Program-made: the position numbers and the translations under genes
Assembly: GCF_900156105.1 (NCBI RefSeq)
Contig: NZ_FTMS01000018.1
Location: 1-64,000, forward strand
Direction of reading: 5' to 3'
Length of the DNA: 64,000 nt
From: Alkalispirochaeta americana
GTDB lineage: Bacteria; Spirochaetota; Spirochaetia; DSM-27196; Alkalispirochaetaceae
Notes under the pieces: generated by a model
Told to the model about the DNA's origin: nothing
Database searches by the model: none
What the model saw: only the letters and a program-made list of their open reading frames with translations
Shown here: in pieces, positions 17,268 to 33,827 of the stretch
Layout of the letters: the number at the start of each line of letters is the position of its first letter
Numbering within the stretch: position 1 is the stretch's first letter

Positions 17268-18490
17268 AAGGGATAACCCAGTGGGAAAACACCCGTATTT
17301 CCGTGCTCAGCATCGCCGGTTCTCCGGTTCGCTCGGCCCTGACAGCCCTGGGGGTAATGATCGGCGTTGCAGCGGTGATCGTCCTGGTTGCTCTGGGACA
17401 GGGAGCCCAGGCGCAGGTGGAAAAGAGCCTGCAATCTCTGGGGTCCAATCTGCTCATCGTCTATTCCGGTGAGCAGCGTGGAGCGGCTCTGGTCAGGACG
17501 AACACCGCAAATATCCGTCCAACCCTGACTCAGGACGATCTTGCAATGATCCGTTCACTGCCGCCCGATCTCGTTGCCTTGAGCACTCCCGCATCGACAG
17601 CGAACGTACAACTGAAGTTCGAGAACCGTAACGTCGCGGCCACGGCGATCGGGACCGGTCCCGAGTACCCGGAAATACGGAACTTCAGGCCGATCTATGG
17701 AGAGTTTTTCCGTTACGACCACCTGGAGAACCGCGCCCCGGTGGTAGTCCTTGGTGCCCAGGTCTACCGGGATCTCTTTCACCAGGGTCACGACCCGCTG
17801 GGTGAAGCGGTGCGTATTAATGGCGTGGCCTATCGTGTCATCGGGGTAATGGAGGAAAAGGGGAACGCCGCCCAGGATTCCTCGGTGATCGTTCCCGTGA
17901 CCACCTTCCAGCGAAGAATAAGCGGAGGATCAAACTATGCGATGATCAACGTTCAGGCTGCCTCCACGGATGTAATGAGAGAGGTTCAGGCGCTCATTGA
18001 GCAGGGAATACTGCGCCTTCACCGGCTGCCCTCGATGGATCACGCCGATTTTTACGTTGCAAATCAGCTGGACCTTCTTTCGACGGTGGCCGGTGTTGCC
18101 GGAACATTTACTCTCTTGCTGGCAGGAATCGCGGCGATCAGTCTGTTGGTAGGAGGCGTGGGAATCATGAATATCATGCTGGTTTCAGTAACCGAGAGAA
18201 CGCGGGAAATCGGGGTCAGGATGGCCCTGGGCGCTCGGCCCCGGGACATCATCTTCCAGTTCCTGACCGAGGCCGTCGTCCTTTCCGTAGCTGGCGGAAT
18301 CGCGGGGATCGCCATAGGTCTGGCCGGTTCCTGGGTCGCAGTCCATCTTGGCAGAACCCCTGCGAACGTACACATTCTCTCGGTTGTGGCGTCCTTTGGG
18401 GTGTCGGTCATGATCGGTCTGTTTTTTGGTGGATACCCCGCGTGGCGGGCGTCAAAACTCGATCCTATAGAGGCATTGCGTTATGAATAA
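17264..18490 (+). CDS. MacB-like FtsX-family ABC permease
   Basis: 408 residues from GTG 17264. Helix 1 is near residues 20-45 (LTALGVMIGVAAVIVLVALG). A large periplasmic MacB_PCD domain spans about 50-270, and three C-terminal helices follow. Family motifs are VGGVGIMNIMLVSVTERTRE, IGVRMALGARPRDI and GGYPAWRASKLDPIEALRYE at the very end. With the separate ATPase it forms a MacAB-like pump. The substrate (lipoprotein, peptide, macrolide or toxin) is not indicated. Confidence 0.9.
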   Translation: MKGITQWENTRISVLSIAGSPVRSALTALGVMIGVAAVIVLVALGQGAQAQVEKSLQSLGSNLLIVYSGEQRGAALVRTNTANIRPTLTQDDLAMIRSLPPDLVALSTPASTANVQLKFENRNVAATAIGTGPEYPEIRNFRPIYGEFFRYDHLENRAPVVVLGAQVYRDLFHQGHDPLGEAVRINGVAYRVIGVMEEKGNAAQDSSVIVPVTTFQRRISGGSNYAMINVQAASTDVMREVQALIEQGILRLHRLPSMDHADFYVANQLDLLSTVAGVAGTFTLLLAGIAAISLLVGGVGIMNIMLVSVTERTREIGVRMALGARPRDIIFQFLTEAVVLSVAGGIAGIAIGLAGSWVAVHLGRTPANVHILSVVASFGVSVMIGLFFGGYPAWRASKLDPIEALRYE

Positions 18491-19139
18491 CTGGAAAAGA
18501 GGTGCCAGGTGGATCCCTTGTTCGGGTCCCGGGTGTGGACAACGAGTGATCTCCATACTCTGTCTGGTCTTGCTTGTTTCTCCGGCCCTTGCGGCACAGC
18601 GCCGTGTCGACGACGCGGCACTTCGCACGGCCCGTGAAGAGACCGAGATAATTCTCGATCTTGGACGCTTGCTCGGTTTTGTCCATCGCATGACCCAGGA
18701 ATCGCCTGAACTTGACTTCGAATCTGATCAGGCGCGGGAGATGCTGGAAATTCTGGAGGAGATTCGAGGGACCCCGCGTATGACGCCGACCCGGGCGCGC
18801 ACGATGATACAGCGGATAGAAGATACGATACTCACTGCCGCCCAGTTGGCCTACACCGATCGGCTCTGGATCAATGCCCAGAGGAATGACCAGAGGAACA
18901 CCCAGAACAGCCGTGCCGAATCGGCCTCATCGGGGCAAGAGTCTGCCTCAGCGTCGAGGGCTGGTCCTGGCTCTTCCTCTCGCCAGGGGACCTCGACAGA
19001 AGATGGTGCCCCGGCGGGCTCGCTGGCTTCGTATGCTGCGGGGGGGCCGTACAACCCCATGACCGAAACGGGGCGGAGGCACGCCGAAGATTTCGAAGCG
19101 TTATACGCCTATCTCCAGACGAAACGTGTCGGGAGGTGA
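18483..19139 (+). CDS. Secreted protein of unknown function, last gene of the export operon
   Basis: 218 residues. The first 38 form a signal peptide (hydrophobic VISILCLVLLVSPALA, cleavage near AQR). Residues 40-140 are helical and charged (TAREETEIILDLGRLLGF, EMLEILEEIRG). Residues 140-190 are a low-complexity Ser/Gly/Ala linker, followed by a short conserved-looking end (RRHAEDFEALYAYLQTKR). I recognise no family. It overlaps the permease gene by 8 bp, so it is likely a periplasmic accessory factor or the exported cargo of this MacAB-TolC-like system. Confidence 0.7.
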   Translation: MNNWKRGARWIPCSGPGCGQRVISILCLVLLVSPALAAQRRVDDAALRTAREETEIILDLGRLLGFVHRMTQESPELDFESDQAREMLEILEEIRGTPRMTPTRARTMIQRIEDTILTAAQLAYTDRLWINAQRNDQRNTQNSRAESASSGQESASASRAGPGSSSRQGTSTEDGAPAGSLASYAAGGPYNPMTETGRRHAEDFEALYAYLQTKRVGR

Positions 19140-19145
19140 CACTCC

Positions 19146-19210
19146 CCGTGCCGTGCCGTGCCGTGCCGTGCCGTGCCGTGCCGTGCCATGCCATGCCGTG
19201 TCGTGTCGTG
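19146..19210. repeat. Pentanucleotide tandem repeat (13 units)
   Basis: Eight perfect CCGTG units, then CCATG x2, CCGTG and TCGTG x2. It starts 6 bp after the stop of the secreted-protein gene and ends 20 bp before the stop of the convergent pilus adhesin gene. It fills the only gap between the two operons. The period of five would shift frame if it were coding, but it lies outside both genes. Confidence 0.9.
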
Positions 19211-19229: not shown

Positions 19230-20174
19230 CTACTGAGCCGTCACGGTCACGGTGAGGTTTTCTGTGTATTCTCCGCTGGTGGCGTCCCGGACATCGCCGA
19301 TCTCGAAGTATAGTTCGTAGCGGTCTCCTGCGATGGAAGTCGGAGAACCTGATCCGATCTCGGCATGGCCCGAAGAAAGATCCCTGATAAGGCCATTCAC
19401 GCGCATCGTGTACGGAATAGCCTCTCCCCTCGTCACGGCACTCCCCGGTGTGGCTCCCTCAAGGACCAGAAACCCCGAGTTTGGCGAGGTCACGCTCAGG
19501 CGGTAGTTGATATCGGTCACCACCACCAGATCAACCTCCTCGGAACGACCCTGCTGGAGTTCTCCAAAATCCAGATGGGCAACATCGGAAAGCGGATCAA
19601 AGGGTTGGCCGCGTCCAACCACGGATAGCCGTACCACCGGAGGAACAGTTACCACGATATGGAGGGGTTCTTCTTCCAGGGAGGGGGTTGTGGCGGGTAT
19701 TCCCCGGTAAAGACGCGTCTGGACCGTGTCGGTATATGTTCCGGCAGGGGGAAACTGACCCTGGGGAATCCGTACCACCAGGGGAAAGGGTTCCTCCTGA
19801 TTCCCCCGGAACTCGTGATAGATCAGATGGCGCTGCCCTGCAGGTCCATCAAGGTCGGTGAGAACCCGGTCGTCAGCCTCGGGGTCCAGAAGCTGATACT
19901 CCAGGGCCGCACCTCCGGGGCCGGTGAGTCGGCGCTGGCTGAAGGAGGCTGAGCCCCCCGCAGAGAAACCGATACCGAACTCAACATTACGGCCGGAGAC
20001 GATAATATCCCCGGTGATGTTGTTTCCCAGGTATTGATCGTAGACTGCGGTGATCGTGCCGGGCGGCGCTCCGAAGGAGGGGCCCTGCGAGGCCTGGCCA
20101 AAGAGGAGGCCTGGCCCGAGGACCATGAGGGAGGCTGCTGCTATCAGGTATATCGATGGGAATGTCTGTTTCAT
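19230..20174 (-). CDS. Two-domain pilus tip subunit/adhesin (CsuE-like, spore-coat-U fold)
   Basis: 314 residues with a signal peptide ending near LLFGQASQ. Two beta-rich domains follow: about 35-170, closing with PPAGTYTDTVQTRLY, and about 180-314, closing with SGEYTENLTVTVTAQ. Both endings are typical last strands of SCPU-fold (spore coat protein U) subunits of archaic chaperone-usher pili. In Csu pili the tip protein has exactly this adhesin-plus-pilin arrangement. Its ATG overlaps the usher stop (ATGA at 20171-20174). Role in attachment is inferred from the family. Confidence 0.75.
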   Translation of the reverse strand: MKQTFPSIYLIAAASLMVLGPGLLFGQASQGPSFGAPPGTITAVYDQYLGNNITGDIIVSGRNVEFGIGFSAGGSASFSQRRLTGPGGAALEYQLLDPEADDRVLTDLDGPAGQRHLIYHEFRGNQEEPFPLVVRIPQGQFPPAGTYTDTVQTRLYRGIPATTPSLEEEPLHIVVTVPPVVRLSVVGRGQPFDPLSDVAHLDFGELQQGRSEEVDLVVVTDINYRLSVTSPNSGFLVLEGATPGSAVTRGEAIPYTMRVNGLIRDLSSGHAEIGSGSPTSIAGDRYELYFEIGDVRDATSGEYTENLTVTVTAQ

Positions 20175-22699
20175 CTCTTTTCTCCTTGAAGCCGAAGATC
20201 CTCCAGGATAACCAGCGGCCCTGGAGCCTGGGGAACTTCCATGATCACCCGGCGACCGGTTCCGTCCCGGAGGGTGATCCGGTATTGTCCGGGAAGAAGA
20301 CCATAGACCTCGAAGGTCCCCTGGTCATCGGTGAAGGAACTCCCTCCCGGGGGCATGTCCTGATCTTCGTCGGGAAGATCAAAGAGGGGGTCCACGGTGA
20401 ATCCTCTATAGACTGCGGGGTGCCCCTGGTCATCCACAAGCCGGCCCCGCACATAGAGGCGCTGAAGCGCCACGATCGTTATGGCCGTACCGGTTCTGTA
20501 GCCCGGCGCAAGAATAAACTGGGTGTGTCCCAGGGTTTGGTCCGCCGGCAGGCCCGGCAGCTCCACGCTGATCGGGGTCCGGCTTCCCGGCATCAGGTTC
20601 GGGACAAAGGCGGCACCCAACCGCCCCGATGTGCGAGGAAGCGCTCCTCCCCGGGTTCTGACAGCCAGGGGTGTCCCGGAAAGATCCCTGTGGGGCCGAA
20701 CCAGGGCAAAGGAAGAGCGCCCGGGGGCACCGACTGCGGCCACGCCATCGGCAAGGTACAGACCTGTGCCGAACTGAAGAGAACGATTGCTGCTCTGAAC
20801 GCTCTGGTCTGCCAGGGAGTCTCCCTCGGAGAAAGTGATTCCGCCGCCTGCTCGCAACTCAAAACGGGAGCTGGCTGCGCTGGCCGTAGCGGAGATTCCT
20901 CCCAGCGTTCCCTCTTCGGGATCGATGGAGTTAGCCCGGCCTCCCGCCGAGAGCCGCACCGTCCCGGGACGACCTGCGGTGCCGCTTAGATCGACCGTTG
21001 ATTCTCGCGCATCAAAGGTTGCGTTGCCGCTCAGATTTCGCTGAACTGCCCGGGACGAGAGGGTTATCCTGAGCCCCCATTGCTCTTCGGGATCCCTGGT
21101 GTCCACCGTCCCGGTGATGTGAAGCCCCAGGCGCGGACCCAGGTTGCGTGCCAGTGTTGCAAAAAGCAGGGACGTTTCGGAGGAATCCCCATGGAAGGTC
21201 CGATACTGGTGTCCCAGGGAGATGCCCACCTCGCCGGGCAGGGTATGAGAGAGGGAGCTTGAGACCTGCCAGGCCTGAGATGAGCCGGTATTCTGTGATC
21301 CCGGCTGGATATAGTCTTGCTGCCGGTAATCCAGGGACGTTGATAGCAGGGGAAGCCAGGACCGCCCCGGAAGCACAAGACGGTATCCCGCCTGGATGGC
21401 CCAGCCGGTTTTCCGGTCATCCTCCATGGAGCCGTAGGCGGCCAGCAAGGCCTCCCCGAAGGGAGTGGCACCCACTATCTCGGTACCTGCCTGCGTTCCC
21501 CGGGTGGAACCATCGGCCAGGATACCCGCCGTGAAGGTCTCTCCAAAACCGTAGCGGAAAAAGCCCGAACCGGCGGGACGTTCCGGGTCGTCCTCCTCGA
21601 CCCCCAAAGCAAGGGCATAGCTGAAAGCTCCCCGATTCAGGAGCCCCCCGGCGTGAGGGACAATAAGTTCGATCGTTTCAACCTCGCCGCTGTTGCGGGT
21701 GTATTCTATACGCGCTGTATTGACCCCTGCTGCAAGAGGAAGATCTCGCAACTCGTACTGACCCATGGAGACGGGGAAGGACCGGATGCGACGATCGTTC
21801 AGATACACATCGATCGTTCCCGCCTCATCCACTGTCAGGGGTCGGCTCAGCAGGGCCGGCAGCAGGGATCGGCTTGTGTCAGCCTCCAGATTGTCGAAGG
21901 AAACTCCCGAAAGTTGCATCGGGGCCTGAAGTCCCCGCAGATACTGGGCAAATTGCCCCGCCTGGAAGCGATAGCCCCGGTCCTCCTGGAACCAGACAAG
22001 GCGGGTGTTTTCGGTCTCCGCCTCGGGCATTCCCTGGTCCTCCTCAAGGTTGGGCCAGTCCAGGCGGAGATCGCTTTCCAGGGTCCAGCCGGAACGGGTG
22101 ATCCCGGGAGAGAAGCGCAGGGAGAGAGACGAGACGCTCTCGCCGTCCCGAACGCTGCTGGACCGGTACTGGCTCCAGAGCGGTATGCCCAGGGCAAAGC
22201 GGGCGTTCTCGGCTTTGACATAGCCCGGAAGCTGGCGCGGTTGATGCAGTGAAAGCGATTGCGGTTCCAGGGCGGTCAGGGGAACCCGTAGTTCCACCGT
22301 CAACTGGTGACGGTCAAAGCGAAGATCAAGCCCTCGTGTCCGGATATCCCCCGCAGAGAGCCAGCCTGTCCCGGCGGCTTCTGAAAGGTTCTCCAGGGTC
22401 TGGTCATCGAGGTAGACCGCCAGAGCCGAAAGGATCTTTGGTGCCTGGAGTGCTACCAGGTCCATGGAATGACTGACCCGGGCCACTACTACCAACTGGT
22501 TGGTACTTCCTCCGGCGACAACCCTGAGAGAAAGCGGAATTTTCACCAGATGATCCATAGTTTCACCCTCCCCGGGAGCTTGGGAAAAAACCGGGACGGT
22601 CATGGGGCCTGAAACAGGAGAAAAAGGGACAAGAAACCCCAGAACCATGACGAGACGGGGGAGCCGCCCCGGACGTCTCGGTGTGGTTCCGGAAATCAT
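20171..22699 (-). CDS. Outer membrane usher of a chaperone-usher pilus (FimD/CsuD-like)
   Basis: About 842 residues from ATG 22699, which follows the chaperone stop by one base. The signal sequence is PRLVMVLGFLVPFSPVSG. The N-terminal domain (IPLSLRVVAG to YLDDQTLENL) is followed by a large beta-barrel containing GTIDVYLNDRRIRSFPVSMG and YELRDLPLAAGVNTARIEY, hallmarks of ushers. The C-terminal domains include a carboxypeptidase-like segment (YVRGRLVDDQGHPAVYRGF) and GTFEVYGLLPGQYRITLRD. It secretes and orders subunits across the outer membrane. An in-frame start further upstream would overlap the chaperone gene and is less likely. Confidence 0.88.
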   Translation of the reverse strand: MISGTTPRRPGRLPRLVMVLGFLVPFSPVSGPMTVPVFSQAPGEGETMDHLVKIPLSLRVVAGGSTNQLVVVARVSHSMDLVALQAPKILSALAVYLDDQTLENLSEAAGTGWLSAGDIRTRGLDLRFDRHQLTVELRVPLTALEPQSLSLHQPRQLPGYVKAENARFALGIPLWSQYRSSSVRDGESVSSLSLRFSPGITRSGWTLESDLRLDWPNLEEDQGMPEAETENTRLVWFQEDRGYRFQAGQFAQYLRGLQAPMQLSGVSFDNLEADTSRSLLPALLSRPLTVDEAGTIDVYLNDRRIRSFPVSMGQYELRDLPLAAGVNTARIEYTRNSGEVETIELIVPHAGGLLNRGAFSYALALGVEEDDPERPAGSGFFRYGFGETFTAGILADGSTRGTQAGTEIVGATPFGEALLAAYGSMEDDRKTGWAIQAGYRLVLPGRSWLPLLSTSLDYRQQDYIQPGSQNTGSSQAWQVSSSLSHTLPGEVGISLGHQYRTFHGDSSETSLLFATLARNLGPRLGLHITGTVDTRDPEEQWGLRITLSSRAVQRNLSGNATFDARESTVDLSGTAGRPGTVRLSAGGRANSIDPEEGTLGGISATASAASSRFELRAGGGITFSEGDSLADQSVQSSNRSLQFGTGLYLADGVAAVGAPGRSSFALVRPHRDLSGTPLAVRTRGGALPRTSGRLGAAFVPNLMPGSRTPISVELPGLPADQTLGHTQFILAPGYRTGTAITIVALQRLYVRGRLVDDQGHPAVYRGFTVDPLFDLPDEDQDMPPGGSSFTDDQGTFEVYGLLPGQYRITLRDGTGRRVIMEVPQAPGPLVILEDLRLQGEKR

Positions 22700-22700
22700 C

Positions 22701-23465
22701 CTAGTCAATAAGCCGTACGTTATAGTCCACATAGAAAGTCCCCTTGGCCCACAGGTCGGGCAAGGGAAGAACCTCTTCCAGGGTTCTTCCTGCCAGAAGG
22801 TTCCGGCCCGCCAGAATCGGGAGCTGAGCTCCCTGAAAGACCTCTTCGGCAATCATCTTTTCGCCGTCGAAAAGACGCAGATGTATGGAAAGATCGCCCA
22901 GGATTCCGTGGGTGGCACCGCGATTTTCAAACCTTACCAGAACGCCCTGGAACGATCCGTTTTGGTACCACCTCTCGGCTCCCGCAAGAATAACATCAGG
23001 AGAGAACCTGCCAGGCCGAACATAAACGCTTCCCTCGTACCGAAAAAGCACGTTGATCCCGGACTGGCGGTCGCCACCGGAGATATCAACCGGCAACTGC
23101 TCGGCAATTATCCTGAAGGCCTGCTCACGCTCTATTCCCCCAGGACCGGTATACTGGACCCGCACGGCCTGGGTCTGGCCGGGAGCGAGCACCATCCGTG
23201 AGGGAAAGACCACCCACTTATCGGAGGCGTCTTCCCGAACCTCTTTTCCCCGGGCATTGTGATCCCGGGTGGTCATGCGGACCTGAACAGCAATCTCCCG
23301 CTCCTGGGTGTTGGTTACCCGATACGTATGGAGCCTCCCCGCCTGGGAGGTTGTAAAGACCTGCGTCAGCGGTTCCAGCGAAAGAGCCCGCAGTGAAGGG
23401 GCTATTGGAAAAAGAATCATCGCCCCCAGGGCGATGATTCGAAGTGACCGTGCAACAGAACCCAT
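22701..23465 (-). CDS. Periplasmic pilus chaperone (PapD/CsuC-like)
   Basis: 254 residues from ATG 23465, which has GGAGG six bases upstream. The longer frame from 23555 lacks this. The signal peptide ends near PSLRALS. The two Ig domains show the usual chaperone elements: TYRVTNTQEREIAVQVRM, DKWVVFPSRMVLAPGQTQAV (the binding groove strand before RVQYTG), and EQAFRIIAEQLPVD with the conserved FRIxxEQLP motif. It stabilises subunits by donor-strand complementation. Encoded directly between the pilin and usher genes. Confidence 0.88.
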   Translation of the reverse strand: MGSVARSLRIIALGAMILFPIAPSLRALSLEPLTQVFTTSQAGRLHTYRVTNTQEREIAVQVRMTTRDHNARGKEVREDASDKWVVFPSRMVLAPGQTQAVRVQYTGPGGIEREQAFRIIAEQLPVDISGGDRQSGINVLFRYEGSVYVRPGRFSPDVILAGAERWYQNGSFQGVLVRFENRGATHGILGDLSIHLRLFDGEKMIAEEVFQGAQLPILAGRNLLAGRTLEEVLPLPDLWAKGTFYVDYNVRLID

Positions 23466-23557
23466 AACATGCCTCCAGTCCGGGATATCGTTCGTCAACC
23501 TTTCTGATCGTATCGTTCTTTCCGGTCGTATCTTTTTCAGCACCAACCCTGACAACC

Positions 23558-24040
23558 TTAGTTCGCCGTGATAGTGAAGATCAAATCATCGTCATACTCG
23601 CCATCACCCAGATCGGGATCGTAGACAAAGTTGACTCCCAGACGGCGGTCTGTGCCAGGACCCACGGACTTCTCATTTGCCCGGTCCGTGACAAGGGCAG
23701 CACCCTCGCTCAGATCCCAGGTAACACCATCGTAGGTAACGGTGTAGGGAAGAACCTCCGACGAATCATCCCTGTTCACCAGGCGCCCTTCCTGTACCGA
23801 CGCCAGGGTGACCTGGTATCCGGCCCGAACGTTGGACCATTCCGTAATGGTGGCCACTTCCACATCGTCGGCATCGGCCAGCATATCCACTTCAAAATCG
23901 GGAACGCTCGCCGTGATCACCACCCGGGGAGCCACACGGCCGTAGAGCCGTATCTCGACGCTGTCACTGGTCTGAAGCTGTGCAAAAGCTGTCGTTCCCG
24001 CCGTTACCATAATCGCTGCAACCAAAAAACCTTTTTTCAT
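23558..24040 (-). CDS. Major pilus subunit candidate (CsuA/B-like, SCPU fold)
   Basis: 160 residues from ATG 24040 (GGAGGG upstream; the in-frame ATG at 24055 contains that ribosome site and is rejected). The signal peptide ends AFAQL. The mature part is beta-rich (VEIRLYGRVAPRVVITASV, VRAGYQVTLAS) and ends GEYDDDLIFTITAN, the same terminal strand type as in the tip subunit. Single-domain size matches the shaft pilin of archaic pili. First gene after the sigma-54 promoter, so it is likely made in greatest amount. Confidence 0.7.
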   Translation of the reverse strand: MKKGFLVAAIMVTAGTTAFAQLQTSDSVEIRLYGRVAPRVVITASVPDFEVDMLADADDVEVATITEWSNVRAGYQVTLASVQEGRLVNRDDSSEVLPYTVTYDGVTWDLSEGAALVTDRANEKSVGPGTDRRLGVNFVYDPDLGDGEYDDDLIFTITAN

Positions 24041-24088
24041 TTTCCTACCCTCCATAGTTGGTATTTCAAACCGTTTCAGTAATATATA

Positions 24089-24104
24089 AGCAAGAGCCGT
24101 GCCA
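24089..24104 (-). promoter_or_regulatory. Sigma-54 (RpoN) promoter of the pilus operon
   Basis: On the minus strand bases 24104-24089 read TGGCACG-GCTC-TTGCT, a full match to the consensus TGGCACG-N4-TTGCW with correct GG/GC spacing. Transcription would begin about 38 nt before the pilin ATG at 24040. A sigma-54-dependent activator gene ends 293 bp upstream. Confidence 0.88.
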
Positions 24105-24396
24105 AATATTCTCCAAAAACGGAGGAAAGGGGAAAAGATTTTTCCGAAGCGGGGGCGGGGAGTTTTTTATTTTCTTTTAATACAAGGAAATATATTGGAT
24201 TTTCCCGCATTCAAGCAGGGAAAATTTTGAGATGTGGCTGAGCAGAACAGGGCAGGAACTGGGGCGCTCCCCCCGGGGAGGAGAAAAATCGGAGGGGGGC
24301 GGGCCTGGATCGGCGATTCCCCTCGCCATGGCGGGCGAAGAAAATCCCGTCACTCGCCCCCCAGGGCGAGCATCGCCGGATCACCTCCGGGAAATC
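24105..24396. promoter_or_regulatory. Upstream activator region of the pilus promoter (no gene)
   Basis: This AT-richer gap between the activator gene and the sigma-54 promoter has no convincing coding frame. It holds two inverted repeats: ATTTTCCC-N11-GGGAAAAT (24199-24225), centred about 108 bp upstream of the -24 element, and GGAAAA-N3-TTTTCC (24131-24145). The first is at a typical distance for an enhancer bound by an NtrC-like protein. Binding by the neighbouring regulator is inferred. Confidence 0.5.
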
Positions 24397-25836
24397 TCAG
24401 GTGTAGGGATTTTCCAGGACCAATCGCTCCAGGCGGGATCGCAAACGACGCTCGGTAATCTTCAAAAGCGCTGCTGCCCGGGACTGGTTTCCCCCGGTCT
24501 CTTTCAGCGCTTCCAGAATCAGGTGCCGCTCAAGGTTGTTCAGCTTGTGATCCAGGGAGTCCCCAGCGGGTTCGGTAGTGCTTCCCGAAACCACAAACGC
24601 CGGGAGATCACCCTCGTGTATGAGGGACCGCTTTGCCAGAATAACGGCCCGCTCCAGAATATTCTCAAGCTCCCGGACATTTCCCGGAAAACCGTAGCCC
24701 ACCAGAAGATTCAGTGCCCGTTGGGTTATTCCTTCAAGGGGGCGTCTGTTTTTTGCTGCGAGCTTGCGGATCATCTGTCCCACCAGGTGAGGAATATCCT
24801 CGCGACGTTCCCGCAAAGGAGGCAACTGTACAGTTATCACGTTGATCCGGTAGAAAAGATCCTCCCTGAAGGATCCATCCCGGACCATCTCGTCCAGATT
24901 CTTGTGGGAGGCCGCCAGAATCCGCACATCCACAGAACGCGGTTCCGAATCGCCCACGCGCTGAATCTCCTTGAACTGGAGAACGCGCAACAACTTTACC
25001 TGCACCGAAAGGGGAATCTCGGCAACCTCATCGATAAAAAGCGTTCCCGACGCTGCCTGCTCAAAAAAACCGACCCGGTCCGTCTGGGCACCGGTAAAAG
25101 CCCCCTTGCGGTGGCCGAAAAGCTCGCTCTCTACGAGAGACTCCGCAAGAGCCGCCACATTCACCACCACAAAGGGCCTCTCCCGGCGCGCGCTCTTGCT
25201 GTGGATAAACCGGGCCAGAAGCTCTTTCCCCGTACCGCTCTCGCCCTGAATCAAAATGGACGCATCGGAATCAGCCGCCCGACCGGCAAGACGCAGGGCA
25301 TCCTTCATCACCGGTGATGCACTATAGGCGATCCCCTCTCCTTCCTGATCGGGCTCGATCAGATCGGCGTAATCCTCTTCCTCGGAACGCCACGCCAGGG
25401 ATCCCGCAATGACCTGCTGAATCTCCGCCATCTTCAGGGGTTTCACCAGATAATCCCGGGCCCCCCGCTTGATCAGACCCACAGCGTTCGGGACAGACTC
25501 GTGGGCAGTAATGACAATCACTGGCACCAGAGGATTCCGGTGACGCATCTCCGTCAGAACGGCAGAGGCCTCGCCATCGGGCAGAAAGTTATCGCAAATC
25601 ACAATATCGGGCTTGCAGGAACCAATCGCCTCCCGGGCAGAGGCAACCGAATCAGCCCGCACCACCCCTATTGGAGGGTATTCCAGCCGCTCTGCGGCGG
25701 CAGCGATAATCTCCAGCTGCACAGGATCATCGTCCACAGCGAGCAAGATCATCCTGCTTGCCTCCGCCGGGGTTTCCTGGTCCGGAGTCACTTCTTTCAG
25801 GGTCACATCCTCCCGGTTCACCTTCTGTGGGATCAT
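24397..25836 (-). CDS. Sigma-54-dependent response regulator (NtrC family)
   Basis: 479 residues from ATG 25836 (GGAGG close upstream). Residues 25-150 form a receiver domain with acidic pocket LLAVDDD, phospho-acceptor Asp in IVICDNFLPDG, and the switch residues ITAHES and YLVKPLK. An AAA+ domain follows: Walker A GESGTGKELLA, the sigma-54-contacting loop GAFTGA, Walker B GTLFIDEVAEI and the arginine-finger region FREDLFYRINV. The C-terminal Fis-type helix-turn-helix is LKETGGNQSRAAALLKITER. It activates RpoN promoters, and the one at 24089-24104 is the obvious target. No cognate kinase is adjacent, though the hybrid kinase at 28890 is nearby. Confidence 0.92.
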   Translation of the reverse strand: MIPQKVNREDVTLKEVTPDQETPAEASRMILLAVDDDPVQLEIIAAAAERLEYPPIGVVRADSVASAREAIGSCKPDIVICDNFLPDGEASAVLTEMRHRNPLVPVIVITAHESVPNAVGLIKRGARDYLVKPLKMAEIQQVIAGSLAWRSEEEDYADLIEPDQEGEGIAYSASPVMKDALRLAGRAADSDASILIQGESGTGKELLARFIHSKSARRERPFVVVNVAALAESLVESELFGHRKGAFTGAQTDRVGFFEQAASGTLFIDEVAEIPLSVQVKLLRVLQFKEIQRVGDSEPRSVDVRILAASHKNLDEMVRDGSFREDLFYRINVITVQLPPLRERREDIPHLVGQMIRKLAAKNRRPLEGITQRALNLLVGYGFPGNVRELENILERAVILAKRSLIHEGDLPAFVVSGSTTEPAGDSLDHKLNNLERHLILEALKETGGNQSRAAALLKITERRLRSRLERLVLENPYT

Positions 25837-27718: not shown

Positions 27719-28615
27719 TTATTTTTGCTCCTTTTGCATTTCCCGTATGACCTGCTCCGAGAGACCGGTGATGCGGGATACAAGAGGTATTTCAAGCCCC
27801 TCGAGGACCATCTTGCGGGCATCTTCGCGGCGGGCCTGCTGCATACCCTGCTGCATACCCTGCTCCACACCACGCTGCTCTATTTTTTCAACTACCTCTG
27901 CCAGCATCGTCTGTACCTCCGTCAATTGATGAACCTTCTCGATATCTCCTGTGTCCAGGGATCCCCGGAACATCCGGTTGATCCAGTGGCCAAACTGCCG
28001 CAACTGTTCAGGCTGCTCCTCGGCGATCATGGCGATTGCCCTGTCGATGGTCCGGGCCAGAGCAGTCTCGTCTTCCTGTTGCTCCAGATACATGATCGCA
28101 GCCACCAGTCCCTTGATCTGCTCCAGCCGCTCCGGCGGGATATCCCGCTCGATGATGGGGTAGTACTCGAAGGAGGGAATGTACCTGGCCGGAATCTCCC
28201 GGGCAATAAGCTCGCTGATATTGAAGGGCACGTTCCAGGGACGGCTGCCGTTATACAACAGAACGGGAAAAACCGCAGGCAAGAGCCCTTTGGTGCTGCT
28301 ACGGAAAAGCTGATCGTAGAGCTGCAGGATATAGAGGAGCATCCGCACGGGGATCGTCTTGTCCGGACTTGACTGGAACTCCAGAAGCACGTAGACGTAG
28401 ACCTCGCGTCCGGGAAGATCCACCCGGTAGATGATATCGCTCTCCCGGTCCAGAAGCTCGTCACTGACAAAGCTCTTGTCGACCAGCTCCACATCCTCTA
28501 CGGCCAGGCCCTGGACAAAGTCCTCTTCCACAAAGCGGGTGAGAAACTGGTGGAACACCTGCCGGCTCGAAAAAAGGTACTTGTAGGCACTATCCCAGGA
28601 CTTCCGCTCTGCCAT
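27719..28615 (-). CDS. Rpn/YhgA-family PD-(D/E)XK nuclease
   Basis: 298 residues, normal for the Rpn (recombination-promoting nuclease, formerly putative transposase) family. The nuclease core is residues 1-110: WDSAYKYLFSSRQVFHQFL at the start, then ESDIIYRV and VYVYVLLEFQSSPD, which hold the D and E-x-Q catalytic residues. The C-terminus is glutamine-rich with GMQQGMQQ repeats, as in many members whose copy number varies. It is a single gene with no terminal inverted repeats, so not an insertion element by itself. Its promoter leaves almost no 5' leader. Confidence 0.85.
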   Translation of the reverse strand: MAERKSWDSAYKYLFSSRQVFHQFLTRFVEEDFVQGLAVEDVELVDKSFVSDELLDRESDIIYRVDLPGREVYVYVLLEFQSSPDKTIPVRMLLYILQLYDQLFRSSTKGLLPAVFPVLLYNGSRPWNVPFNISELIAREIPARYIPSFEYYPIIERDIPPERLEQIKGLVAAIMYLEQQEDETALARTIDRAIAMIAEEQPEQLRQFGHWINRMFRGSLDTGDIEKVHQLTEVQTMLAEVVEKIEQRGVEQGMQQGMQQARREDARKMVLEGLEIPLVSRITGLSEQVIREMQKEQK

Positions 28616-28651: not shown

Positions 28652-28889
28652 TTGCACACCTCTCTGGGGGCCGGTATTTCTTAAGTGGGGTGCAGCAACG
28701 CTGGCGAGGTGAACAGAAGAAATCAAAATAGAACATCCCGTCAGAACATCCAGCCAGAACCGAAGGGCTGCCTGAAAAACGGCGTTGCAATCTGTTCAGA
28801 GCCTGGACGATACTGGAAAAAGACCAGTTTCAGGACCCGCTACAGGATCCGCAAAAGGTCACCCGGGGACTGGAGGGAGCGGTAAAAAC

Positions 28890-31800
28890 GTGGAGCACGC
28901 TGATCTGAACGAACTTTTTCGGGCTTCTCCCTTTGGCTTTGCCCACCACGAGATCCTTCTTGATGAGGCCCAACAGCCCCGGGATTTCCGGTTCCTTGAG
29001 GTAAACCCGGCCTTCGAGACGCTCACCGGTCTTGATGCACCAACGATCATCGGCAAAACAGCCAGGGAAACTCTCTGGAGCCAGGACCAGATCGATCACG
29101 CCCTGATCGAACTCTTCGGCCGGGTGGCCCTCGAGGGTGGCAACGAAACCTTCGAGCATTATTCCAGGGTCCTGGGCCGGTGGTATCAGGTCCACGCCTT
29201 CTCGCACAGCCCGGGGTACTTCACCACGACCTTCACCGATATTACCCGCCGGAAGGTCCAGGAAGAAGAACTGGAGCGGTTTTTCTCGGTCAACCTGGAC
29301 CTGCTCTGCATCGCCGATCTGGAGGGGCGCTTCCTGAAGACCAACGAGGCCTGGAGCGACATCCTGGGCTATTCCCGGGGAGAGCTGGAGGGCAAGCGCT
29401 TTCTCGATTTTGTCCATCCCGATGACCTCCAGCCCACGCTGAAAGCGATCTCTACCCTCGCCGAGGGGGAAGATCTGCTGTGCTTTACCAACCGCTACCA
29501 AAGCAAGGACGGCTCCTGGAGGTACATCGAGTGGCGCGCGCACCCCCGGGGAGAGCGCATCTACGCCGCAGCCCGGGACATCACCGAACGGGTCAGGAAT
29601 GAGGAGCGCAATCACCGGCAACTGGAGTTTCAGAAAATCGTCGCTGCCAGCGCGGCCGCTTTTTCCGACATTCACGACACCCCGGAACTGAACAGGGTGA
29701 TCGACACTATCCTTCAACGGCTGGGAAGCTTTTTTGGCGCCGATAGAAGCTATCTCTTCCAGTTCACCCAAGATGGCCGTTTCATGACCAACACCCACGA
29801 GTGGTGCTCCGATAATACCCCCTCCCAGATGCATCGCTCCCAAAAGGTCCCTTTGGATTCCATGCCCTGGTGGCAGGAGCGCATGGCTACCGAGGGCTTT
29901 GTTCTGATCCCCTCTGTGGAGGATCTTCCTCCCGGGGCTGGGGCAGAGCAGCGGGAGTTTCTGGACCAGGGTATTCAGTCGCTCATCTCGATCCCCCTGG
30001 CGGAGTCGTCAGAGAAAACATCATCCTCTGGTGAAGCCGACTCCCCGGAAAAGATCACCGGCTTTATCGGTCTCGATGCGGTCCACCGTCGCTATCGCTG
30101 GTCCCGGGAAGAAGTGTCGCTCCTGAGGATTCTGGGATCGATCGTGGGCAGCGGGATTGAGCGATTCCTGGCCCGGAAACAGCTCCAGGAGAGCGAGCTG
30201 AAGCTGCGGCATATCACGGAGAACATGGGAGAGGTCTTCTGGCTCCGCAACGCTGACAACAGCAAAATGCTCTACATAAGCCCCGCCTATGAGACGGTCT
30301 GGGGCCGCAGTTGCCAGAGCCTCTACGATGACCCGGCTTCTTTTACCAAGGCAGTTCACCCCGACGACGCCGACCGGATAGGAGCTGCCTACGCTGCATA
30401 CCTGGAGTCTCATGCCTTTGAAGAGGAATACCGGATTGTCCGTCCCGACGGAACCCTTCGCTGGATTCGTGCCCGGTCCTTCCCTGTTCGCGGCCCGGCG
30501 GGTGAGATCATTCGCCATACCGGCATCGCCACGGACATCACGGAACGAATCCTCAAGGAGCAGGAAATAGCCAGGGAGAAGAACCTCACGGAACAGTTCT
30601 TTAACCAGTCCCTCCACGGATTCTTCATTTCTCTTCTCGATAAACCCCTGGACTGGAACGACGGGGCCTCCAGAGATAGCATGGTAGAGTACGCCCTGGA
30701 CCATCAGCGAATGACCAGGGTCAACCAGGCCATGCTCGATCAATACGGTGCAAGCCGGGAGGAGTTCATCGGCATTACCGTGCGGGAGCTCTTTCGTCAC
30801 GACCCGGATCAGGGCCGGGAGATCTGGCGCGGTCTCTTTGACCGCGGGTCGTGGCACGTGGAAACCCGGGAACAGCGTATGGACGGAACGCCCATCATCA
30901 TCGACGGTGACTACCGGTGCCTCTACGACGACCAGGGACGGGTTCTGGGGCATTTCGGTGTGCAGGTAGACATAACGGCCCGCAAGGAGGCCGAAGAAAC
31001 GCTCCGCGATGCCCAGGAGCAGATAAAACAGATCGTCGCCACCACCCCGGTTGTTCTCTACAGCTACATCATCGATTCCCGGGGTGAACCCGATCTGGTC
31101 TTCATCAACGGCAAGGTAACAGAAATCCTGGGGTACCAGCCCGAGGATTTCATCGGCCGTATCGATCTCTGGAAACGCTGTGTCCATCCCGATGATCTGG
31201 AACGGGTCATGACTACCCTCCGGGAGCTGCGGCAGAGAGATTCCCTGGAGACAGAGTACCGGTTTCGGGATATCCGGGGGCAATGGCACTGGATACTCGA
31301 CCGGCACAACGTGATCCGCCGGGACCTGGAGTGTACGAAGGTAACGGGTGCCTGGTCAGATATAACCGACCGCAGGAAGGTTGAAGAGCAGCTGCAGTAC
31401 GAGCGGAATCTCTTCACGGCGGGTCCGGTTTTTACCATAGAGTGGGACCCCTCCCGGGGCTGGCCCGTCCGTTCTGTCTCTGCCAACGTTGCCCAGATTC
31501 TTGGCTACAGCCCCGGGGAGATGACTCATCAGGGGTTTTGCTACGCCGACCTGATCCACCCCGATGATGCCGGGAGGGTCGCTGATGAGGTGACGAACAA
31601 TATCTCAAACCGCGTGGACGCCTACGAGCAGTCCTATCGGCTGAAATGCGGCGACGGCCAATATCGATGGTTTTATGATTTTACCATGCTGGTCCGCGAT
31701 GACAGGGAAGAACTCACGGCAATTCGTGGCTATATGTACGACCAGACGCAGCAGAAATCGACGGAGCTGGCGCTGGTGCGGGAACGCACGCGCCTGGCAG

Positions 31801-33827
31801 GGATTATCGAGGGCACCCATGTCGGTACCTGGGAGTGGAATGTCCCGACCGGTGAGACAGTTTTTAACGAACGCTGGGCCGAGATTATCGGCTATACCCT
31901 GGAGGAACTTGCTCCGATCTCGATCAACACCTGGATGAGCTTTGCCCATCCCGATGATCTGAAACGAAGCGGAGAATTGCTGGAAGAGCACTTTCGGGGA
32001 GAGCGCGATTATTACGAGTGTGAATCACGGATGCGGCACAAAAGGGGCGGGTGGGTCTGGGTTCTTGACAGAGGAAAGGTGGTCTCCTGGACAAGCGAGG
32101 GAAAGCCCGAGCTCGTAATGGGCACCCACCAGGACATCACCGAGCGCAAAAGATCCGAAGAAGAGCTTCTTCTGGCAAAAGAACAGGCCGAGGCCGCAAG
32201 CACGGCCAAGTCCCGGTTCCTGGCCAACATGAGTCACGAGATCCGCACCCCCCTGAACGGAGTCATCGGGTTCACGGATCTGCTGAAAGATACCCCGCTC
32301 TCGCCTGCCCAGAAGCAGTACGTGGATAGCGCCAACGTCTCGGGCCATACTCTCCTGGAAATAATCAACGATATCCTGGATTTCTCCAAAATTGAGGCGG
32401 GGATGATGGAGCTTGAGATGATCAAGGTCGATATGGAGACGCTCCTGGAAAACAGCGTGGATATAATACGGTACAGTGCCGGAAAAAAGAATCTCGAGGT
32501 ACTTCTCAATATCGACCCTGCCATGCCTCGCTTTGCCCTGGTTGATCCCGTGCGGCTCAAGCAGGTTCTGGCAAACCTCCTGGGCAACGCCGTGAAGTTC
32601 ACCGACTCAGGGGAGGTGGAGCTGGCTCTTCGATTTGAAGATCAGGGAAGCGATCAGGATCAGGGAGTCTTCCACGTTTCTGTTCGTGACACGGGAATCG
32701 GTATATCGGCAGTGGAGCGGAAGAAACTCTTTCAAGCCTTCTCCCAGGCCGACAGCTCCACCACGCGTAAATTTGGCGGCACCGGCCTGGGGCTGATCAT
32801 CTCGGACATGATCGCCCGGAAGATGGGGAGTGAAATCCGCGTGGAGAGCGATCCCGGTCAGGGCACGGTCTTTTCCTTCGAGTTTTCCGCCCGGGTAGAA
32901 CGGGGCCGGCACAGTGAGCATCCCGTGAGCCTCAAGGGCTGGCGCGTTCTGGTGATCGATGATAACGCCAGCAACCGTCTGATCCTGGAGCGTCTTCTGG
33001 AACGCTGGGGCATTGTCAGTGAATCCTGCGAGAACGGTCTTGAGGCGTTGAAACTCCTGGAGCGGTCAGGACCCTTCGACGTGATCATGTGCGACTACCA
33101 CATGCCCTATCTGGACGGGCTGGAGACGGTCAGGATGATCCGCTCAAACCCCGACCTTTCGGCAGAGAGGCAACCAATCATTTTGCTTCACTCTTCATCG
33201 GACAACCAGGAACTGCAACGGGATTGCGAGAACCTGGGAATCCGGTTCCGCCTGACAAAACCGGTGCGGACCCACGATCTGCGGGAGTATCTGTGCAATA
33301 TTCATGATCCTCCAGCCCCGGCCGCGCCCGGGGCAGAGGCCGTCAAGGGAGGCTCTGACGAAACTGGCCATGCCACCGATCCCGGCCGGGAAGACTCCTT
33401 CAGGGAGCCTCGGGATCCATCAAGGAATGTGAAAATTCTGATCGCCGAGGATGTGGCGCTGAACATGACCATGATCAAGGCGCTCCTCACCAGACTTTCC
33501 CCCTCTTCGGGTTTGCTGGAGGCGGCGAATGGCGCCGAGGCGGTGGATATCTACGCCCGGGAATTGCCGGACCTGGTCTTTATGGACGTCCAGATGCCCG
33601 AAAAAGATGGAGTTCAGGCAACAGAAGCGATTCGGGCCCTCGAAACCGATCGGTATCCGGGGCGGTCTGTTCCGATCGTGGCCCTCACGGCGGGTGCTCT
33701 CACGGAAGAGCGGGACCGCTGCCTTGCTTCGGGTATGGACGACTTCCTCACCAAGCCTGTTGATCCTGAAAAGCTTCGGAAGTGCCTGGGCCGTTATCTC
33801 CCGGGGGGCAGTGATACCTTCGGGTAA
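28890..33827 (+). CDS. Giant cytoplasmic multi-PAS/GAF hybrid histidine kinase
   Basis: About 1645 residues from GTG 28890 (GGAGGGAG upstream; an earlier ATG at 28785 is possible). Domains in order: PAS 6-122, PAS 129-233, GAF 246-420, PAS/PAC 437-550, PAS 569-694, PAS 710-825, PAS 837-952, PAS 968-1085, HisKA with SHEIRTPLNG (phospho-His 1116), ATPase 1218-1335 (GTGLGL), receiver 1 (1350-1470, Asp 1402) and receiver 2 (1513-1640, Asp 1566). I see no membrane helix or signal peptide, so it senses cytoplasmic cues such as redox state, flavin, haem or a ligand. No Hpt domain is fused, so a separate Hpt and response regulator must complete the relay. The linker between receivers is Pro/Ala/Gly-rich. 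Confidence 0.9.
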   Translation: MEHADLNELFRASPFGFAHHEILLDEAQQPRDFRFLEVNPAFETLTGLDAPTIIGKTARETLWSQDQIDHALIELFGRVALEGGNETFEHYSRVLGRWYQVHAFSHSPGYFTTTFTDITRRKVQEEELERFFSVNLDLLCIADLEGRFLKTNEAWSDILGYSRGELEGKRFLDFVHPDDLQPTLKAISTLAEGEDLLCFTNRYQSKDGSWRYIEWRAHPRGERIYAAARDITERVRNEERNHRQLEFQKIVAASAAAFSDIHDTPELNRVIDTILQRLGSFFGADRSYLFQFTQDGRFMTNTHEWCSDNTPSQMHRSQKVPLDSMPWWQERMATEGFVLIPSVEDLPPGAGAEQREFLDQGIQSLISIPLAESSEKTSSSGEADSPEKITGFIGLDAVHRRYRWSREEVSLLRILGSIVGSGIERFLARKQLQESELKLRHITENMGEVFWLRNADNSKMLYISPAYETVWGRSCQSLYDDPASFTKAVHPDDADRIGAAYAAYLESHAFEEEYRIVRPDGTLRWIRARSFPVRGPAGEIIRHTGIATDITERILKEQEIAREKNLTEQFFNQSLHGFFISLLDKPLDWNDGASRDSMVEYALDHQRMTRVNQAMLDQYGASREEFIGITVRELFRHDPDQGREIWRGLFDRGSWHVETREQRMDGTPIIIDGDYRCLYDDQGRVLGHFGVQVDITARKEAEETLRDAQEQIKQIVATTPVVLYSYIIDSRGEPDLVFINGKVTEILGYQPEDFIGRIDLWKRCVHPDDLERVMTTLRELRQRDSLETEYRFRDIRGQWHWILDRHNVIRRDLECTKVTGAWSDITDRRKVEEQLQYERNLFTAGPVFTIEWDPSRGWPVRSVSANVAQILGYSPGEMTHQGFCYADLIHPDDAGRVADEVTNNISNRVDAYEQSYRLKCGDGQYRWFYDFTMLVRDDREELTAIRGYMYDQTQQKSTELALVRERTRLAGIIEGTHVGTWEWNVPTGETVFNERWAEIIGYTLEELAPISINTWMSFAHPDDLKRSGELLEEHFRGERDYYECESRMRHKRGGWVWVLDRGKVVSWTSEGKPELVMGTHQDITERKRSEEELLLAKEQAEAASTAKSRFLANMSHEIRTPLNGVIGFTDLLKDTPLSPAQKQYVDSANVSGHTLLEIINDILDFSKIEAGMMELEMIKVDMETLLENSVDIIRYSAGKKNLEVLLNIDPAMPRFALVDPVRLKQVLANLLGNAVKFTDSGEVELALRFEDQGSDQDQGVFHVSVRDTGIGISAVERKKLFQAFSQADSSTTRKFGGTGLGLIISDMIARKMGSEIRVESDPGQGTVFSFEFSARVERGRHSEHPVSLKGWRVLVIDDNASNRLILERLLERWGIVSESCENGLEALKLLERSGPFDVIMCDYHMPYLDGLETVRMIRSNPDLSAERQPIILLHSSSDNQELQRDCENLGIRFRLTKPVRTHDLREYLCNIHDPPAPAAPGAEAVKGGSDETGHATDPGREDSFREPRDPSRNVKILIAEDVALNMTMIKALLTRLSPSSGLLEAANGAEAVDIYARELPDLVFMDVQMPEKDGVQATEAIRALETDRYPGRSVPIVALTAGALTEERDRCLASGMDDFLTKPVDPEKLRKCLGRYLPGGSDTFG

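Follow-up and report, generated by a model that had tools for sequence, protein, structure and literature searches.

What do the four genes on the minus strand at 19230-24055 encode, and how would they be turned on? Spirochaete flagella are internal, and to our knowledge spirochaetes are not generally credited with chaperone-usher fibres. We analysed the window, which is the whole 64,000-nucleotide stretch of Alkalispirochaeta americana DNA, together with related loci from other genomes. Our reading, to which we give a probability of about 0.85, is that the locus encodes a minimal adhesive pilus of a chaperone-usher type resembling the archaic class, together with a sigma-54 switch of its own. 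The host, which the original prediction had called a spirochaete only conditionally, is one. Its genus is common to the host and to Spirochaeta and Spirochaetaceae MAGs, and the host chaperone groups among Spirochaetota sequences.

The genes are arranged in the order pilin, PapD-type chaperone, usher and two-domain tip adhesin. The major pilin gene (23558-24055, minus strand) encodes 165 residues as an open reading frame, including a signal peptide, and its product is characterised by a conserved family and a predicted fold. The reading frame opens with an ATG at 24055. A better Shine-Dalgarno sequence precedes the ATG at 24040, the likely start. It is followed by the gene of a CsuC-like periplasmic pilus chaperone (22701-23465, minus strand, 254 residues), that of the outer-membrane usher (20171-22699, minus strand, 842 residues) and that of the two-domain tip subunit or adhesin (19230-20174, minus strand, 314 residues). 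The complete four-gene operon that had been predicted was thus found in the expected order and strand, with its starts refined. Short GGCAC repeats lie in a run at 19140-19200 of the window, in the gap that separates the tip gene's end from a convergent gene (18483-19139). An usher match was detected in 29 of the 61 genomes searched, the host's own counted. A second four-gene chaperone-usher operon is located in the same genome (L022:5223-10053; G000:C8), and a second system of this type is also found in close relatives (L023-L025).

Profile searches against the SCPU, PapD and usher families had been proposed as a check of the four proteins, and they were borne out in part. The tip protein matched SCPU (3.1e-12) and the chaperone matched PapD_N (1.7e-9) in Pfam. 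The pilin had no Pfam match, SCPU included, and no PDB profile match. The window usher alone had no match to the Pfam Usher model, only a weak one to PefC/AfrB (9e-4), and its single-sequence search against the PDB returned nothing usable. The usher and the pilin therefore had to be placed by a family profile or by a fold search. PF00577 was matched by 11 of the 24 usher family members, and the usher family profile reached FimD (1.6e-15) and PapC (2e-11) in the PDB. By this profile the usher is assigned to the FimD/PapC family, the window protein being too divergent for Pfam on its own.

The chaperone family profile matched CsuC first (1.1e-6) and EcpB next, and no classical chaperone appeared at E<=0.001. 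In the alignment, Pro90 and Arg120 of the chaperone correspond to Pro59 and Arg89 of CsuC, and both are invariant in 17 relatives. Pro59 is a feature of the superfamily and Arg89 is a feature of non-classical chaperones (PMC4654587); the subunit-anchoring Arg89 is common to the archaic and alternative classes.

The structures of the two subunits were predicted with mean pLDDT values of 87 (pilin) and 88 (tip). The predicted pilin fold matches the chaperone-usher pilins CfaB (top), CsuA/B and CupE (8cio), with modest TM-scores of 0.4-0.5, and the best match of the predicted tip fold is CsuE (6fjy, 2e-12). In the pilin model the N-terminal segment is free and of low confidence, whereas order in the tip model begins at about residue 30, as expected if the pilin is a donor-strand subunit and the tip is terminal. 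These models bear on whether the products might form a surface coat, a capsule-like layer or a polyadhesin and not an extended, tip-bearing pilus. Such a structure would agree with the name SCPU, which comes from spore coat protein, with the single rod subunit gene, and with the pilin fold, which also matches the capsule-like or polyadhesin subunits Caf1, Saf and Psa. However, the separate two-domain subunit with CsuE as its best fold match fits a tip on a polymer, and the free pilin N-terminus beside the ordered tip model also argues against a coat. We consider the coat reading unlikely and the tip-bearing pilus the preferred one.

By these matches the pilus belongs to the non-classical chaperone-usher systems and most resembles the archaic Csu. 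Two archaic features were found: a non-classical chaperone with the Arg89 equivalent, and a two-domain, CsuE-like SCPU tip. The archaic class has been described with conserved disulfide-forming cysteines, including an invariant pair in the pilin (PMC4654587, PMC10104325). This pair is missing from the window pilin and tip, and the cysteine count is zero in all four pilus proteins. Cysteine-free pilins make up 45/50 in Spirochaetota versus 4/22 in Pseudomonadota. No DsbA or DsbB match was detected in the host genome, whose assembly is 95.6% complete. Since cysteine-free rows occur in other phyla too, the archaic pair may not be universal. The system was not classed as a strict archaic member because the pair is missing, though it would work as one and by chaperone and tip it is closest to that class. 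The earlier label "archaic, Csu-like" therefore holds for the likeness to Csu (chaperone to CsuC, tip to CsuE) but is weakened by the pilin, which has neither the cysteine pair nor an SCPU match.

The second part of the question is the control of the operon. A -24/-12 element, TGGCACGGCTCTTGCT, is located at 24104-24089 on the minus strand and matches the sigma-54 consensus at 11/11 scored positions, the sole full match in the 64-kb window. Base composition predicts 0.06 full matches in the window and 0.00015 in an upstream region of 300 bp. The element is kept before orthologous pilin genes: among 40 Spirochaetota loci, a full site was found in 6 (0 for the reversed motif), and a site of at least 10/11 in 18 (2 for the reversed motif). 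A chance match was rejected on this expectation together with the conservation. The genome carries one intact rpoN, and the full RpoN-consensus promoter of the original prediction was confirmed.

Six further full sites were found in the genome. By gene names read from the sequence without family search, they precede amtB/glnK, glutamate synthase, a sulfate-type ABC transporter, a CDP-diglyceride-synthase-like gene and two sigma-70-family genes, which makes the -24/-12 consensus plausible for this host. The elements just upstream of the two sigma-70-family genes (L059:3620, L063:3521; G000:C3, C13) suggest that sigma-54 may feed a cascade of other sigma factors. TGGCAT-type -24/-12 elements (10/11) were also observed about 60 bp before the pilin gene of Bdellovibrionota chaperone-usher operons (L103:6045, L129:6114), and no activator of the pilus-bEBP family adjoins these two loci.

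The next gene upstream of the pilus operon (24397-25752, minus strand) encodes a sigma-54 activator (bEBP) of 451 residues, on which, as on the paired dyads described below, the original prediction was silent. It contains a receiver with the phospho-acceptor Asp54 (Response_reg, 4.4e-19), a GAFTGA-bearing AAA+ domain (Sigma54_activat, 4.2e-68) and a Fis-type HTH (HTH_8, 6.6e-9). Orthologues of the activator score about 400 bits or higher, and the next homologues reach at most 320; by this gap the orthologue was found in 13 of the 61 genomes, each of which also has an usher (Fisher 1e-5, relatedness ignored). In a comparison with four other activators of the host genome, the pilus activators group as one clade. 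This gene is very probably the pilus operon's own dedicated activator. Beside the bEBP in relatives no partner kinase was found; the adjoining genes are UmuC-like, FapA and transporter genes, among others. A gene for a UmuC-like polymerase lies directly upstream of the pilus activator gene in two relatives (L077:3513-4814, L090:3454-4803). Within the window, a gene for a 1680-residue multi-PAS hybrid histidine kinase (28785-33827) lies beside a YhgA-like transposase gene (27719-28615). This kinase is unsupported as the partner of the bEBP, an rsgA-like gene and the transposase lying between them.

Between the activator gene and the promoter lie two dyads of the form TCGCCM-N4-KGGCGA, which are putative bEBP sites. 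In minus-strand reading they are TCGCCCTGGGGGGCGA (dyad 1, 24354-24369) and TCGCCCGCCATGGCGA (dyad 2, 24323-24338), 31 bp apart and kept as a pair, and each matches 12/12 positions of the scoring consensus TCGMCM-N4-KGKCGA. In the whole genome the dyad pattern occurs at nine places, versus 12 for the reversed control, and it is paired only at the pilus locus. The two dyads of the window stand about 235-265 bp upstream of the -24 element. Across loci, paired dyads are spaced by 20-21, 30-32 or 43 bp, consistent with two, three or four helical turns. The helical phasing of the pairs gives a Rayleigh p of about 6e-5, an approximate value because the consensus was derived partly from loci that were later scored and because several loci are close relatives, so not all are independent. 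At each of three activator loci left out of the motif derivation (L053, L168, L169), two dyads matching 11-12/12 positions were found as a pair, together with a promoter of 11/11; L170 was not counted, being an apparent duplicate of L070. No dyad of at least 11/12 was detected upstream of 19 control operons without an activator. A perfect inverted repeat, ATTTTCCC-N11-GGGAAAAT (24225-24199), lies between the dyads and the promoter; it was dropped as an activator site because it is missing from the orthologous regions.

The order of activator, dyads, -24/-12 element, pilin, chaperone, usher and tip recurs in Spirochaetota loci. Two Treponema MAGs (L085, L098) have the dyad and promoter without an adjoining activator, and in both an orthologue is encoded elsewhere in the genome (429 and 403 bits). 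One relative (L074) has neither dyad nor promoter, and no activator orthologue was found there (best 314 bits). Matches to the promoter or dyad consensus are poorer in the loci that diverge most (L069, L077, L090, L093), and L090 shows a single dyad.

This pattern bears on the choice between the switch that we propose and two other explanations. The pilus operon could be real while a sigma-70-type promoter drives it, the -24/-12 match and the nearby bEBP being coincidental. A consensus match alone is no proof of function; in the second operon of this genome, the region upstream of the pilin gene lacks both a -24/-12 element and dyads, and no activator gene adjoins it; sigma-54 site and activator are likewise missing in many relatives. 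Against coincidence stand the low chance expectation, the excess over the reversed motif in the 40 loci, and the co-conservation of the site with bEBP and dyads, the held-out loci included. Together with the activator gene and the paired dyads, this conservation turns the consensus match into strong evidence for sigma-54 control, and a coincidental promoter is very improbable.

It could also be that the operon is sigma-54 dependent and a different bEBP activates it, the dyads being used by some other protein, such as a repressor, or in autoregulation of the bEBP gene. The dyads follow immediately after the bEBP stop codon and stand as far as about 265 bp from the promoter, which would suit such a role. 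Yet L085 and L098 keep dyad and promoter where the bEBP gene is not adjoining, and the HTH residues E434, R435, R438, S439 and R440 are invariant in 12/12 aligned activators, those of L085 and L098 included. Moreover, NtrC-family activators typically bind at dyads that occur in phased pairs upstream of a -24/-12 element. This alternative is improbable, and we favour the dyads as binding sites of the adjoining bEBP.

On the favoured reading, a signal, probably phosphorylation of the orphan receiver, would activate the adjoining bEBP, which would bind the two helically phased dyads and loop to RNA polymerase-sigma-54 at the -24/-12 element. ATP hydrolysis driven through the GAFTGA motif would open the promoter, so that pilin, chaperone, usher and tip would be transcribed together. 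The chaperone would then bring the cysteine-free subunits to the usher. The CsuE-like subunit would exit first as the tip, and donor-strand exchange would extend the rod into a fibre that may serve in adhesion.

We compared this predicted system with known pili. Like Csu of Acinetobacter baumannii (PMC4654587, PMC9452303), it has a CsuC-nearest chaperone, a CsuE-nearest two-domain tip, and subunits, chaperone, usher and tip in one operon. In contrast to the Csu rod genes CsuA/B, A and B, the spirochaete operon has a single rod subunit gene; it also differs from Csu in its subunits without cysteine, its usher too divergent for the Pfam model, and its sigma-54 promoter with a dedicated bEBP. CupE of Pseudomonas aeruginosa (PMC10104325) resembles it in pilin fold (8cio) and pathway class, whereas CupE1 has a conserved disulfide, C41-C85 (PMC10104325), of which the spirochaete pilin has none, and regulation by a sigma-54 module is not described for CupE. 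The alternative class (CFA/I CfaB; E. coli common pilus EcpB) is similar in that CfaB is the top pilin fold match, the chaperone profile reaches EcpB, and Arg89 is shared, but the spirochaete chaperone and tip match archaic proteins better. In Burkholderia thailandensis, csuFABCDE with bfmSR is likewise an archaic pilus operon beside a two-component system, which is needed for its biofilm role (PMC12124856). That paper names neither sigma, RpoN nor NtrC, whereas in the spirochaete no kinase gene adjoins the regulator, an orphan sigma-54 activator.

Spirochaetae were already listed in the fimbrial usher family in a 2016 survey (PMC4827864), so an usher in a spirochaete is not new by itself. The earlier remark that an usher pilus in a spirochaete is noteworthy is thus right about the host but must be tempered by that listing. 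Archaic chaperone-usher pili have been described from proteobacteria, cyanobacteria and Deinococcota (PMC4654587, PMC10104325). In the open-licence literature we found no report of a chaperone-usher pilus with a dedicated sigma-54 activator, none of an archaic pilus under sigma-54 control, and none of a chaperone-usher pilus characterised in spirochaetes. The regulatory module and the cysteine-free lineage look new.

In conclusion, we lean towards the view that Spirochaetota have a distinct cysteine-free chaperone-usher lineage, in many members of which a dedicated sigma-54 activator, acting through phased sites of its own, would provide a tightly gated attachment switch. The co-travelling promoter, activator, dyads and structural genes give a testable model of how free-living spirochaetes may turn on attachment. 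The cysteine-free subunits, in a genome without a DsbA or DsbB match, call into question whether pili of this kind require the conserved disulfide.
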